Positions 33,429 to 39,977 of a DNA stretch of 64,000 nucleotides are shown in pieces. The notes under the pieces are model-generated. The model was not told the origin of the DNA. It made no database searches and saw only the letters and a program-made list of their open reading frames with translations. Within the stretch, counting starts at the first letter, position 1; each line of letters opens with the position of its first letter. Location of the stretch: the NCBI RefSeq assembly GCF_002633015.1, contig NZ_NSIU01000009.1, positions 1 through 64,000 of the forward strand, read 5' to 3'. Both the position numbers and the translations under genes were made by a program. This DNA comes from Sulfuricurvum sp. PD_MW2. GTDB taxonomy: Bacteria; Campylobacterota; Campylobacteria; Campylobacterales; Sulfurimonadaceae.

Positions 33429-34742
33429 TTAGAATTTCAATGAAGCGATAAGACGGAAAGTATCCGTTGTTTTGTCAGATGTATCATTTGCTTTTACATC
33501 TTTGTCAAATTGAGTATAGATCGCAGTCAAATCAACCGGCCCAACTTTCGTTGCAGCGACAACGTCCCATGCTTTGAAATCAGTGTTGACAGAAGCTGCG
33601 CCTTGAACTGCACCAGCAGTACCTTCATTGTTACCAACTTCAGCTGCACAATAGCTTGTTGAAAGGGTTACACCCGGAACCATTTTAGTTGAAGCTCCAA
33701 CTTTCCATGCTTTTGTATCCGGAGCGGCTACGATTTCACCATCCATATAGATGCTTCCAAGACCTGTGTAAAGGCTCGTTTTGTCACCCGTTGCAACGTT
33801 TGCAAATCCGAGAGTACCGGTACTTACTTTTGAGTATGCAGCATAAAGATTTACACCCGCAACATCAACAGCACCTTTAACCGCAACTACAGTTGAATCT
33901 CTGTGACTTGTAGCAGCAGCGCCAAGAGTTGTAATAGCTGAATCTGTATTCATTCCAGCAAATTGTACACCTAAATCAACCATACCGGCAACTTTAGTAT
34001 CCGCTTGCAACCAATACGCATCTGCGATATCAGGTACATTGTAATACCATGCTTGCAATGTTGTATTTGGAACCGATTTGTTGATCGCTGCAGCTGCATA
34101 CGCACCGCTTACGCCAAAATTATGGAAATCCCCACCATACGCTACGGTTGTACCACGACCAGCAGTTGGTTGAAGTAAACCTACACCATTGTGTTTACCA
34201 ACCCATGCCGCTGCCAAAATTGTGTCACCGACATACGCGTGTGCAACTGCGGCTTCGAACGTGTTATCAACAACGTTCCAGTTTTCAGAAAAACACAACG
34301 GAGTGTTCAACGCCATACGACCCGCTGCAACGTCAAACTCTTTCGTTGCGTATTTGATGTTTGCAACTTCCATCCATGATTGATCGTTCAATGCATTTGC
34401 TGCTGAAGTTCCATCATTGTTATATTTAGCTGCCGGGATAGCACCAACAAGATTGTTTTCCAATCCCAACGTTGAGATTGCTGTCATTTTAACGTTCAAG
34501 CTAATGTTTTGAACCAAATCTGCTGAACCGCCAACACTCAATTTTGCTAATGCACTCGAGTTGTTTGTTTTGTCAAAAAAATCTTTTGCTGCGTCAGCTG
34601 CTGGTACTGCTGTTGCACCACCACTATATTCACTTGTTTGGTACCAAAGTTTTGCTTCACCGTTTACTTTAATGTTATCAACCGCAAATGCGCTTGTTCC
34701 AAGAGCCATTACAGCTACAAGACTAAGTTTTCCTAATTTCAT
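33429..34742 (-). CDS. major outer membrane porin (MOMP-like)
   Basis: Signal peptide (KLSLVAVMALGTSAFAVD) then a 415-residue beta-barrel pattern of alternating residues and Gly/Asn turns, ending in FRLIASLKF with the C-terminal Phe that outer-membrane insertion needs. The beginning INVNGEAKLWYQTS-like (VNGEAKLWYQT) fits the Campylobacter MOMP/OprD-like porins. Its strong AAGGAGAA site and codon use suggest high expression. An ATGTGAT motif lies upstream, also seen in front of the FccB-like gene. Confidence 0.9.
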   Translation of the reverse strand: MKLGKLSLVAVMALGTSAFAVDNIKVNGEAKLWYQTSEYSGGATAVPAADAAKDFFDKTNNSSALAKLSVGGSADLVQNISLNVKMTAISTLGLENNLVGAIPAAKYNNDGTSAANALNDQSWMEVANIKYATKEFDVAAGRMALNTPLCFSENWNVVDNTFEAAVAHAYVGDTILAAAWVGKHNGVGLLQPTAGRGTTVAYGGDFHNFGVSGAYAAAAINKSVPNTTLQAWYYNVPDIADAYWLQADTKVAGMVDLGVQFAGMNTDSAITTLGAAATSHRDSTVVAVKGAVDVAGVNLYAAYSKVSTGTLGFANVATGDKTSLYTGLGSIYMDGEIVAAPDTKAWKVGASTKMVPGVTLSTSYCAAEVGNNEGTAGAVQGAASVNTDFKAWDVVAATKVGPVDLTAIYTQFDKDVKANDTSDKTTDTFRLIASLKF

Positions 34743-35034: not shown

Positions 35035-35451
35035 TTACCAGTTACGAATACGGATATGGCACGAAGTACATTGTTTCAGAAGTTGCGAGTAATCATCCAA
35101 TGCATTGTCCATTTTGCCCGCATCAATCGAAACAACCATGTCATCCGAATACATACGTAGCATTTGAGCTGTTTTTTGAGCGAATTTATAGGCATAGACC
35201 TGATCCTTTGGCAAAATCGCTTTTACCTCTTCACCCTCTAATGATTTAAGTGTCCCTTGCAATTTTTTGACACCCGCTTTCATTTCATCTGTCGAACTGT
35301 ATAAACCACCGCGTTGAATTTGTTCCATAGCATCCAACATGGTACGCATATCTTTCATCAATTCAAGTCTCGGATCCGTATTTTTTGGCGTTGCCTGTAA
35401 TGAAGCCGCCAAAAGTGTTCCAAGAGCCAATAGGGATACTGCTTTTTTCAT
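35035..35451 (-). CDS. C-terminal monoheme cytochrome c, cytochrome c'-like
   Basis: A 138-residue periplasmic protein with a signal peptide (VSLLALGTLLAASLQA) and a single CTSCH heme site only seven residues before the end (Cys128/Cys131/His132). The rest is helical. This C-terminal heme and all-helix layout is that of cytochrome c' or c-556 type proteins, which can be electron carriers or gas-binding sensors. It is the last gene of the flavoprotein/Rieske operon, 12 nt downstream. It may be the electron acceptor for the other two; that is inferred. Confidence 0.85.
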   Translation of the reverse strand: MKKAVSLLALGTLLAASLQATPKNTDPRLELMKDMRTMLDAMEQIQRGGLYSSTDEMKAGVKKLQGTLKSLEGEEVKAILPKDQVYAYKFAQKTAQMLRMYSDDMVVSIDAGKMDNALDDYSQLLKQCTSCHIRIRNW

Positions 35452-35463
35452 GATGCCACCTTT

Positions 35464-36189
35464 TTAATATTGGATAATTTCTTTTGAATACTCTGTCAAT
35501 TTAACTGTTTTAGCTGAAATCGACACCAATTTTTTTGCTTCTGCCGGTCCGCCGTAAAACTCTTTTAACTCCGGACGAAACTCTTTGAAATAATCATGAA
35601 ACTTATCCTGTCCTAAAACACCAATCGCCCAAATCGTATCATCAGCCGCGACTTCCAGTACAACAGATGCTAAAGGCTGAGTTGCCGCTCCACCGAGTAC
35701 TTTGGCCCCTGCTCCCGCATCAAACGCTGAAAGGTGTGAAGAACAAACAATGATACCGCTTTTATCGTATGCCATTGTTTTCTTAGCTTTAGGGACATAA
35801 CCGATAAAACTGTCATTCGGTGTCGGATGGGTCATTTGATGGGTACAGATAGCTACATAAGAGACGATTGTACGCTCTTTCCCTACTCCGCTTTTCCATA
35901 CATAAGTCTCACCGCTGTCTGATTTCAATGTTACCTCTTTATCCGTTGGCTGAGGAAGATTGATCAACATACATGGGGTAGACGCGTATGGATAATTGAA
36001 AATATAGGTCACCTCTTTTGCAAGTGCCGAAGCTTTAATCGGTTTTCCTGCTGCATCTACTAATTGTGCTTTTTCGTATGTTTGATACAATGCGCCATCG
36101 GCAGCATAAAGATTCCCGCGAATCAATGAAGGATTCACCGCAATAACCGTTGCACCGGCAACTACTTTTAAAAAATTTCTTCTATCCAT
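35464..36189 (-). CDS. Tat-exported Rieske 2Fe-2S protein
   Basis: Twin-arginine signal RRNFLK at residues 3-8 with a hydrophobic stretch, then a Rieske domain: C115-T-H117 and C149-S-S-H152 for the 2Fe-2S cluster. The spacing between the two motifs is 31 residues, longer than in bc1 Rieske proteins, and the two disulfide cysteines of those proteins are absent. The C-terminal 50 residues are extra. I start at ATG 36189; the track start would lie in the flavoprotein's spacer. It probably carries electrons between the flavoprotein and the cytochrome. Confidence 0.85.
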   Translation of the reverse strand: MDRRNFLKVVAGATVIAVNPSLIRGNLYAADGALYQTYEKAQLVDAAGKPIKASALAKEVTYIFNYPYASTPCMLINLPQPTDKEVTLKSDSGETYVWKSGVGKERTIVSYVAICTHQMTHPTPNDSFIGYVPKAKKTMAYDKSGIIVCSSHLSAFDAGAGAKVLGGAATQPLASVVLEVAADDTIWAIGVLGQDKFHDYFKEFRPELKEFYGGPAEAKKLVSISAKTVKLTEYSKEIIQY

Positions 36190-36273
36190 GAATGTATCCG
36201 TATTGAGAGTTTTGTAAAGAATAAGTGTAGCAGATTTTAAACTAAATCCCCCCAAAGAAGGGGAGAATATAAA

Positions 36274-37677
36274 TTAGCTGAACAAGTCGCGCATTGCACC
36301 TTTGTACCAGTCTCGAGTTGCTTTTCCAAGTCCGGTTGAACGGAACTTATTACCAGCTTCATCACCTTTTGGAACTGAACCTTTTGAACCGATAACCGGC
36401 CCTTGTACCATAAATTCGTGATTAACCATAATCGCTTCTTCCGGATTCCCGTTAACCATTGAATAACAAACGTTTGCACTTTTGTATGGAAGAGCTGATG
36501 CGACACTGTATGATTTGCCGTGAAGTTTATGTGCAATCTCTTTCGCACACTCTTTACCTGACCAAATAGCCGATTGCCCGCTTGGAGGAATCGCATGTCC
36601 AACAACGTCACCTACCGCAAATACATTGGCATCAGTAGCGGTTGCAAAAGAAACCGGTTTTTCAGGGCTGGTTGCCATTTTAACTTTTTTAAATCCGTCC
36701 GGAGTTGTTGCGACACCTGCCATCTCAATAACCGGATTTGACATGTTGTGCGGGATAAAGTTGAAAATGCCGTATTTCAATGTTTTGGTCGTTTTTACAC
36801 CCTCAACATCATCTTTGTTAGCAAATACTGTTTGAACGTATGTAATCTCTTTTTTATCAAAATCGACATCTACGATTTTACAGTTATCTTGGTGTTCTAC
36901 TACACCTGCATACAAATCTTTCCATGTTTCTTTAAACGCAGCACCTTTTGCAACTTCGGCAGTTTCATTCAAAATGATAACTTTACCTTTAAGTCCTTCA
37001 TTTTTCATGTAATTAGCGATCATACTTGCACGTTCAAACGGCGCCGGTGGACAACGATATTTTCCAGCTGGAACAGTGATAACGACATCACCTTCTTCCA
37101 TGTTTTTCACCATACGATCCAACGCCACGTGTTCACCGCCCGGAACCAATGCAGCTGGTGCTACGCGGCGAGCTTTTGCGATTTTAGCCGCATCCCATGT
37201 CGGAAATTGACCTTTGTAGTTATAATCGATCCCCGGAGCAAGAACCAAGATATCATAGCCTACACCGCCTTTTGAAGTATAAACCACTTTGTTTTCACGG
37301 TCAATTCCGGTAACAACCGCTGTCAACATACCATAACCGTTTTTCTCAACTGCTTGTGAATAGTCGTAGGTCAAAGTACTAAGACTTACACCTTTGATAC
37401 CGCCAAGATTACAGTTTGAAAATGGGCAAGACATAAAGCTATCGTTTTTCTCAATAATCGCTACATCAAAATTAGGGTCGATTTTTTTCAACTCTTTGGC
37501 AACGGTCAAACCGCCCCAACCTCCACCGATAATAACGACTTGATGTTTACCAAGCATTTTGCTAGTTGCATTTTGTGCACCCGGAGCAGCACCTGTAGCG
37601 GCTGTACAACCTGATACGGCAGCTGCCGCTACGCTGATACCGGCAAACTTAAATAAGTCACGTCTTGAAATGTTCAT
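36274..37677 (-). CDS. FccB-like sulfide dehydrogenase flavoprotein
   Basis: Resembles the flavoprotein subunit of flavocytochrome c sulfide dehydrogenase. SRRDLFK with VSGC gives a Tat signal possibly ending in a lipobox. The FAD motif VVIIGGGWGGLTVAKEL is at 47-63, then SCPFSNC with Cys84 at the place of the covalent 8-alpha-S-cysteinyl FAD site. KYRCPPAP (Cys209) and SGKECA (Cys377) match the redox disulfide that attacks sulfide. AAGGAGAA precedes the ATG. The usual diheme FccA partner is absent; a Rieske protein and a monoheme cytochrome follow in its place. Confidence 0.88.
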   Translation of the reverse strand: MNISRRDLFKFAGISVAAAAVSGCTAATGAAPGAQNATSKMLGKHQVVIIGGGWGGLTVAKELKKIDPNFDVAIIEKNDSFMSCPFSNCNLGGIKGVSLSTLTYDYSQAVEKNGYGMLTAVVTGIDRENKVVYTSKGGVGYDILVLAPGIDYNYKGQFPTWDAAKIAKARRVAPAALVPGGEHVALDRMVKNMEEGDVVITVPAGKYRCPPAPFERASMIANYMKNEGLKGKVIILNETAEVAKGAAFKETWKDLYAGVVEHQDNCKIVDVDFDKKEITYVQTVFANKDDVEGVKTTKTLKYGIFNFIPHNMSNPVIEMAGVATTPDGFKKVKMATSPEKPVSFATATDANVFAVGDVVGHAIPPSGQSAIWSGKECAKEIAHKLHGKSYSVASALPYKSANVCYSMVNGNPEEAIMVNHEFMVQGPVIGSKGSVPKGDEAGNKFRSTGLGKATRDWYKGAMRDLFS

Positions 37678-39617: not shown

Positions 39618-39977
39618 GTGATCAAAATCATCCTGTTGATCTTACCGATCTCACTCCTTGCAACAGCACCTTCCTTGTATGACCAAGGAAAAAATCTCTA
39701 TTTGACAAAAGGGTGCAGCGGCTGTCATGGCATCTCAGCGGGCGGAACCAATCAATACCCCGCCCTCGCCTATCGCCGGAAACCCTTTTTAATGAGTAAA
39801 CTGCAAAGCTATCGTGCAAAACAAGGATCTACACAACAATCTCAACTTATGATCCCTTTTGCAATGGGGCTGAGTGATAAAGAGATTGATGCGTTAACCA
39901 CATTTTTTAGTGAATACCACGAAAATAAAAGCAACTATAAACCTGATTTAGCCGCTAGAGGCGATGGAGGATCATGA
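39618..39977 (+). CDS. small monoheme cytochrome c
   Basis: Signal peptide (IILLILPISLLATA) and one class-I heme motif, CSGCH, at 33-37, with a likely Met ligand in the QLMIPFAMG region. At 119 residues it is a soluble periplasmic electron carrier or an oxidase subunit. The start is GTG with AAAAAGGG upstream. Its stop overlaps the LpxB start by four bases, which is odd for a cytochrome but shows transcriptional linkage. Confidence 0.9.
   Translation: MIKIILLILPISLLATAPSLYDQGKNLYLTKGCSGCHGISAGGTNQYPALAYRRKPFLMSKLQSYRAKQGSTQQSQLMIPFAMGLSDKEIDALTTFFSEYHENKSNYKPDLAARGDGGS

Follow-up and report, generated by a model that had tools for sequence, protein, structure and literature searches.

Three adjacent genes of Sulfuricurvum sp. 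PD_MW2, contained in the 64,000-nucleotide stretch of DNA analysed here (hereafter the window), on balance probably encode a single periplasmic module: a sulfide (or sulfane) dehydrogenase in which electrons would run from flavin to a Rieske centre to a class II cytochrome. The neighbourhood of the first two genes recurs in Campylobacteria far beyond chance, and is an inherited set, not a local accident. The features of the locus are as follows.

36274..37677, minus strand: gene for an FccB-like FAD flavoprotein, 467 aa
36246..36268, minus strand: hairpin between the flavoprotein and Rieske genes, inside the 84-nt gap
35464..36189, minus strand: gene for a Rieske [2Fe-2S] protein, 241 aa counted from the ATG
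35035..35451, minus strand: gene for a class II cytochrome c, 138 aa

As the original prediction had described them, the three genes share the minus strand (coordinates 37677–35035), with gaps of 84 nt between flavoprotein and Rieske genes and 12 nt between Rieske and cytochrome genes. The listed Rieske open reading frame of 263 aa begins at a TTG upstream of the 241-aa ATG start. Rfam places no known RNA in the region, and a promoter scan returned no more sites than in shuffled sequences.

The flavoprotein is FccB-like, as proposed at the outset. It scores 90.9 bits against Pfam FCSD_central (cut-off 27) and 21.6–25 bits, slightly under the cut-off of 26, against FCSD-flav_bind; its nearest solved structures are the FccB proteins 5n1t, 3vrd and 1fcd, and its 60 bits against the SQR_III model, with a cut-off of 525, place it outside that family. 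Aligned to A. vinosum FccB, Cys84 corresponds to Cys42, the covalent-FAD cysteine, and Cys209 and Cys404 correspond to Cys161 and Cys337, the redox pair, both positions of which are kept in 57/57 aligned flavoproteins. Cys84 and Cys209 had been correctly assigned from the start, but the second redox cysteine had been placed at Cys377, where the aligned residue is Ala. The leader contains the Tat motif SRRDLFK, and the VSGC at residues 21–24 resembles a lipobox, a motif common to the Sulfuricurvum relatives in the same flavoprotein clade (clade B, below), so that Cys24 is a possible lipid attachment site. In an unrooted tree of 54 flavoproteins with few references, the Campylobacteria group, the window protein included, stands apart from FccB proper (A. 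vinosum and T. paradoxus; split 100/100). With FccAB (A. vinosum 1fcd, 3vrd; T. paradoxus 5n1t) the window flavoprotein thus has in common the fold family, the FAD cysteine, the redox pair and the CPPxP(F/Y)ER motif; unlike FccAB, it belongs to a separate clade, may carry a lipoprotein signal and is accompanied by a Rieske protein and a class II cytochrome instead of FccA.

The absence of an FccA partner had been part of the original prediction, with a homologue elsewhere in the genome named beforehand as the refuting find, and it holds at the scale of the genome: searches with profiles PF00034 and PF13442 found no FccA-like diheme protein, and none is encoded adjacent to the flavoprotein gene. 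PF00034 matches 13 places, among which the two-heme open reading frames of 292, 305 and 339 aa resemble the bc1 cytochrome c1, CcoP and a cytochrome c peroxidase; PF13442 adds small open reading frames only. In contrast, at the loci L101–L105, whose flavoproteins group with true FccB, a one-heme cytochrome of 98 aa is encoded 14–16 nt from the flavoprotein gene. Counting against the single-module reading, the genome encodes a second Tat-exported SQR-like flavoprotein (L169:2632–4065, contig C22; SQR_III 182 bits, under the cut-off of 525).

The Rieske protein, Tat-exported as judged by its sequence, has the ligand boxes CTHQMTH (C-x-H) and CSSHLSAFD (C-x-x-H), and both cysteines and both histidines of these boxes are conserved in 37/37 aligned sequences. 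The boxes have no counterpart to the two additional cysteines found in bc1 Rieske proteins, and a Phe occupies the usual Tyr position. The score against Pfam PF00355 is 14.9 bits, under the cut-off of 20.3, and the AlphaFold model (pLDDT 44) is too poor for use. In the library, SoxL2 and the arsenite oxidase small subunit match best, and in the PDB, AioB does. The AioB and SoxL-type proteins are similarly Tat-exported, but the window protein scores far below their family cut-offs, and its partner is a flavoprotein in place of a molybdenum enzyme or a cytochrome b: no cytochrome b gene adjoins it at the locus, and a separate bc1 operon is present in the genome. A search of a plasmid collection for this Rieske family gave two weak AioB-like matches.

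The cytochrome has a single CXXCH heme site (CTSCH) near its C terminus, and its AlphaFold model (pLDDT 78) is a four-helix protein that matches cytochromes cb562 and c′ with TM of about 0.6 and E of about 0.005–0.03, none below 0.001. The description of this protein as cytochrome c′-like stands for the four helices and the C-terminal heme, features shared with class II cytochromes c (c′, c556), but is not clearly supported beyond them. Its score against Pfam Cytochrom_C_2 is 18.4 bits, under the cut-off of 26.5, and Met35 is invariant, which would be unexpected for the five-coordinate cytochrome c′; plain cytochrome c′ was rejected as an identity on these two grounds. Across 30 module sequences and 10 paralogs, the invariant residues are Met35, Gln46, the CXXCH cysteines and histidine, and Arg136. 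This pattern suggests that Met35 is the sixth heme ligand of a six-coordinate, electron-transfer type of cytochrome, in which case the protein would be an electron carrier. In the same genome, one paralog occupies the fourth position of the bc1 operon, after the genes for the Rieske protein, cytochrome b and diheme c1 (L143:1818–4869, contig C65), an order also seen in the genome G202 (L150), and we count it in favour of the proposed module.

Among Campylobacteria, the Rieske family occurs in 17/249 genomes and, in a larger draw, in 39/397 genomes, with 40 copies. All 40 copies have a gene for an FccB-like flavoprotein as neighbour, which shares the strand in 39 cases and is convergent in one (G335). 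The cytochrome gene is adjacent to 27/40 copies; it is missing beside the other 13, some of them at contig ends, and is therefore not essential. The survey of the 397 genomes, a gene-order search that the original prediction had proposed, bears out a conserved Rieske partner that is usually joined by the cytochrome. The observed orders are F-R-C, R-F, F-Y-Z-R-C, F-R-Y-Z-C and R-C-F-Y-Z (F, flavoprotein; R, Rieske; C, cytochrome; Y and Z, SoxY and SoxZ), and this variety points to functional linkage rather than a single frozen block.

The Rieske-linked flavoproteins fall into two clades, clade B, which includes the window protein (18 genomes), and clade A (21 genomes). In the genome G060, a clade B flavoprotein gene stands alone, with no Rieske gene adjacent. 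The same Rieske family serves both clades, with at least four clade switches on the Rieske tree. In G175 (L098), a genome of the same genus, a distant clade A flavoprotein occupies the corresponding chromosomal slot, beside genes for dihydroorotase and chorismate mutase, together with a Rieske protein 80% identical to that of the window; because the same slot can carry either flavoprotein beside so similar a Rieske protein, the Rieske–cytochrome pair appears to be a common acceptor. At three clade A loci (L094, L097 and L098), the flavoprotein has lost the covalent-FAD cysteine (FMSGF replacing FMSCP) and retained the redox pair.

We infer the substrate, the order and direction of electron flow and the formation of a complex, and the mechanism that we propose is as follows. 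Sulfide (or persulfide or polysulfide) would be oxidized at the FAD and the Cys209–Cys404 disulfide of the flavoprotein, and the sulfur product would be released or handed on. The dedicated Rieske protein would accept the flavin electrons, replacing FccA, and would hand them singly to the four-helix cytochrome c; at loci that lack the cytochrome gene, the general c-type pool would receive them instead. Their final destination would be a terminal oxidase or a nitrate-reducing chain. In the clade A version, the substrate sulfur would be bound to a SoxYZ carrier, whereas the clade B version would have no SoxYZ requirement. We count in support of the module the FCSD active-site residues, the unbroken Rieske linkage, the lack of any FccA found and, by analogy, the proven activity of a related Rieske-linked flavoprotein (PMC3504083).

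The role of SoxYZ rests on clade A, in which 11 operons contain SoxY and SoxZ genes, one pair being confirmed over cut-off by PF13501, PF08770 and SoxZ_true. The SoxY proteins of these operons form their own clade (100/100), apart from those of soxXYZAB and soxCDYZ. SoxC over cut-off is absent from 11/11 clade A genomes with linked SoxYZ, and linked SoxYZ is found in 0/10 of those with SoxC (Fisher p 2.8e-6); this perfect split reflects no more than three independent changes (p 0.25 in a sign test) and so is not yet statistically independent evidence. The clade A flavoprotein probably acts on SoxYZ-bound sulfur. As a tentative and somewhat doubtful extension, the Rieske-relayed flavoprotein system of Campylobacteria may use a third, dedicated SoxYZ and replace SoxCD where that is absent, providing a second route for loading or oxidizing carrier-bound sulfane, with clade B as a SoxYZ-independent branch.

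An alternative, which we regard as unlikely, is that the window flavoprotein is itself SoxF-like and loads, oxidizes or reactivates the SoxYZ of a separate soxXYZAB cluster, with the Rieske protein and cytochrome as its electron sink. Such a cluster is present in the genome (L144:1130–7579, contig C23), with genes for a porin-like protein and a SoxH-related metallo-hydrolase after it, and a profile search of the genome found no SoxC above cut-off, which indicates a truncated Sox system in which sulfane would need to be handled. The SoxYZ of the clade A operons, tracking the absence of SoxC, fits the same role, and a work cited in PMC5336275 reports by its title that Chlorobaculum SoxF stimulates thiosulfate oxidation. 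Plasmid records of Paracoccus alcaliphilus and Neorhizobium resemble clade A in that FccB-like flavoproteins adjoin SoxYZ genes; compared with the SoxF of sox clusters, clade B has a Rieske protein as partner and no diheme. Against a SoxF-like role in the window, linked SoxYZ was found neither at its locus nor at any clade B copy examined. Moreover, SoxY is missing from 7/18 clade B genomes as opposed to 0/21 clade A genomes (p = 0.002, uncorrected for kinship), although absences of SoxY and SoxC are provisional because some of the genomes are drafts.

It is improbable that the Rieske protein and cytochrome, instead of being partners of the flavoprotein, form an independent unit (an alternative bc1-like or a gas-responsive one) transcribed from the flavoprotein promoter. 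In favour of such a unit, the distribution of the cytochrome family is wide and extends beyond this Rieske protein (46/249 genomes versus 17), the family weakly resembles cytochrome c′, and the hairpin divides the first two genes. Hairpin-forming gaps occur in most clade B relatives with varying sequence, and flavoprotein–Rieske gaps fold more stably than their shuffles (median z −2.8, with 20/28 loci below −2) through stems that differ in sequence. Such a conserved intergenic hairpin could uncouple the expression of flavoprotein and Rieske protein, which we count against a single module; other possible roles are to fix the ratio of the two products or to make the leading part of the message more stable. 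A separate unit is at odds with the linkage of all 40 copies across many families and several gene orders, with the lack of an adjoining cytochrome b and with the retention of the Rieske protein when the flavoprotein is exchanged. Least probable is a reversed system, in which electrons would pass via the Rieske protein to the flavoprotein and reduce periplasmic sulfur, polysulfide or a mixed disulfide: sulfur reduction is common in Campylobacteria, and the missing extra cysteines and the Phe for Tyr of the window Rieske protein are expected to lower its potential, but the FCSD relatives with tested activity are sulfide oxidizers, and the potentials of c-type cytochromes and Rieske centres normally lie far above the sulfur/sulfide couple.

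The dehydrogenase module that we favour has a published precedent, so the claim that such a system had not been described was too strong. In a Sulfurihydrogenibium relative of the Aquificota, sulfide dehydrogenase genes cluster with Rieske, cytochrome-like and sox genes (Tamazawa 2012, PMC3504083); its flavoprotein DhsU1 is a monomeric sulfide dehydrogenase, the activity being that of the flavoprotein alone, with the Rieske protein and cytochrome unstudied. This cluster (LSSB dhsU1 – Rieske – dhsU2 – sox) resembles the window in its FccB-like, Tat-exported flavoprotein, the same three cysteines and the adjoining Rieske and cytochrome-like genes, a likeness judged by gene content. It differs in phylum and in having the Rieske gene flanked by two flavoprotein genes. 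The idea of a Rieske-linked sulfide dehydrogenase is therefore partly anticipated, and the Campylobacteria set is apparently an uncharacterised variant of a known enzyme type. Papers on Campylobacteria name the flavoprotein ‘Fcc’ and leave the Rieske partner unmentioned (PMC12403661, PMC12029903, PMC10066037), and full-text searches, with supplements and subscription journals outside their scope, yielded no paper in which flavocytochrome c and Rieske are brought together with Sulfurimonas or Sulfuricurvum.

In many sulfidic waters Campylobacteria are the dominant group, and the ‘Fcc’ genes they carry are scored as sulfide dehydrogenase without a known acceptor. If the proposed module is correct, a Rieske–cytochrome acceptor would account for Fcc working without FccA, and the gene order would be a better marker than fccB alone. 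It would also suggest, in a form open to testing, how strains whose Sox system is truncated and lacks SoxCD handle carrier-bound sulfur; the SoxYZ genes of the sister operons were not visible to the original prediction from the window alone.

Several further features were observed in the window and its relatives. The flavoproteins 79–92% identical to that of the window come from named relatives that are mostly Sulfuricurvum MAGs. An Opr-like porin gene (33429–34742) lies on the same strand downstream of the operon, and many Sulfuricurvum relatives keep a porin there. A third SoxY clade (L116, L117, L119, L121–L124), distinct from the SoxY1 and SoxY2 of Campylobacteria, was found here only in operons with clade A flavoproteins. 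Finally, a small one-heme cytochrome c gene (39618–39977) with a GTG start overlaps an lpxB-like gene by 4 nt and is kept adjacent to the dihydroorotase gene in relatives.
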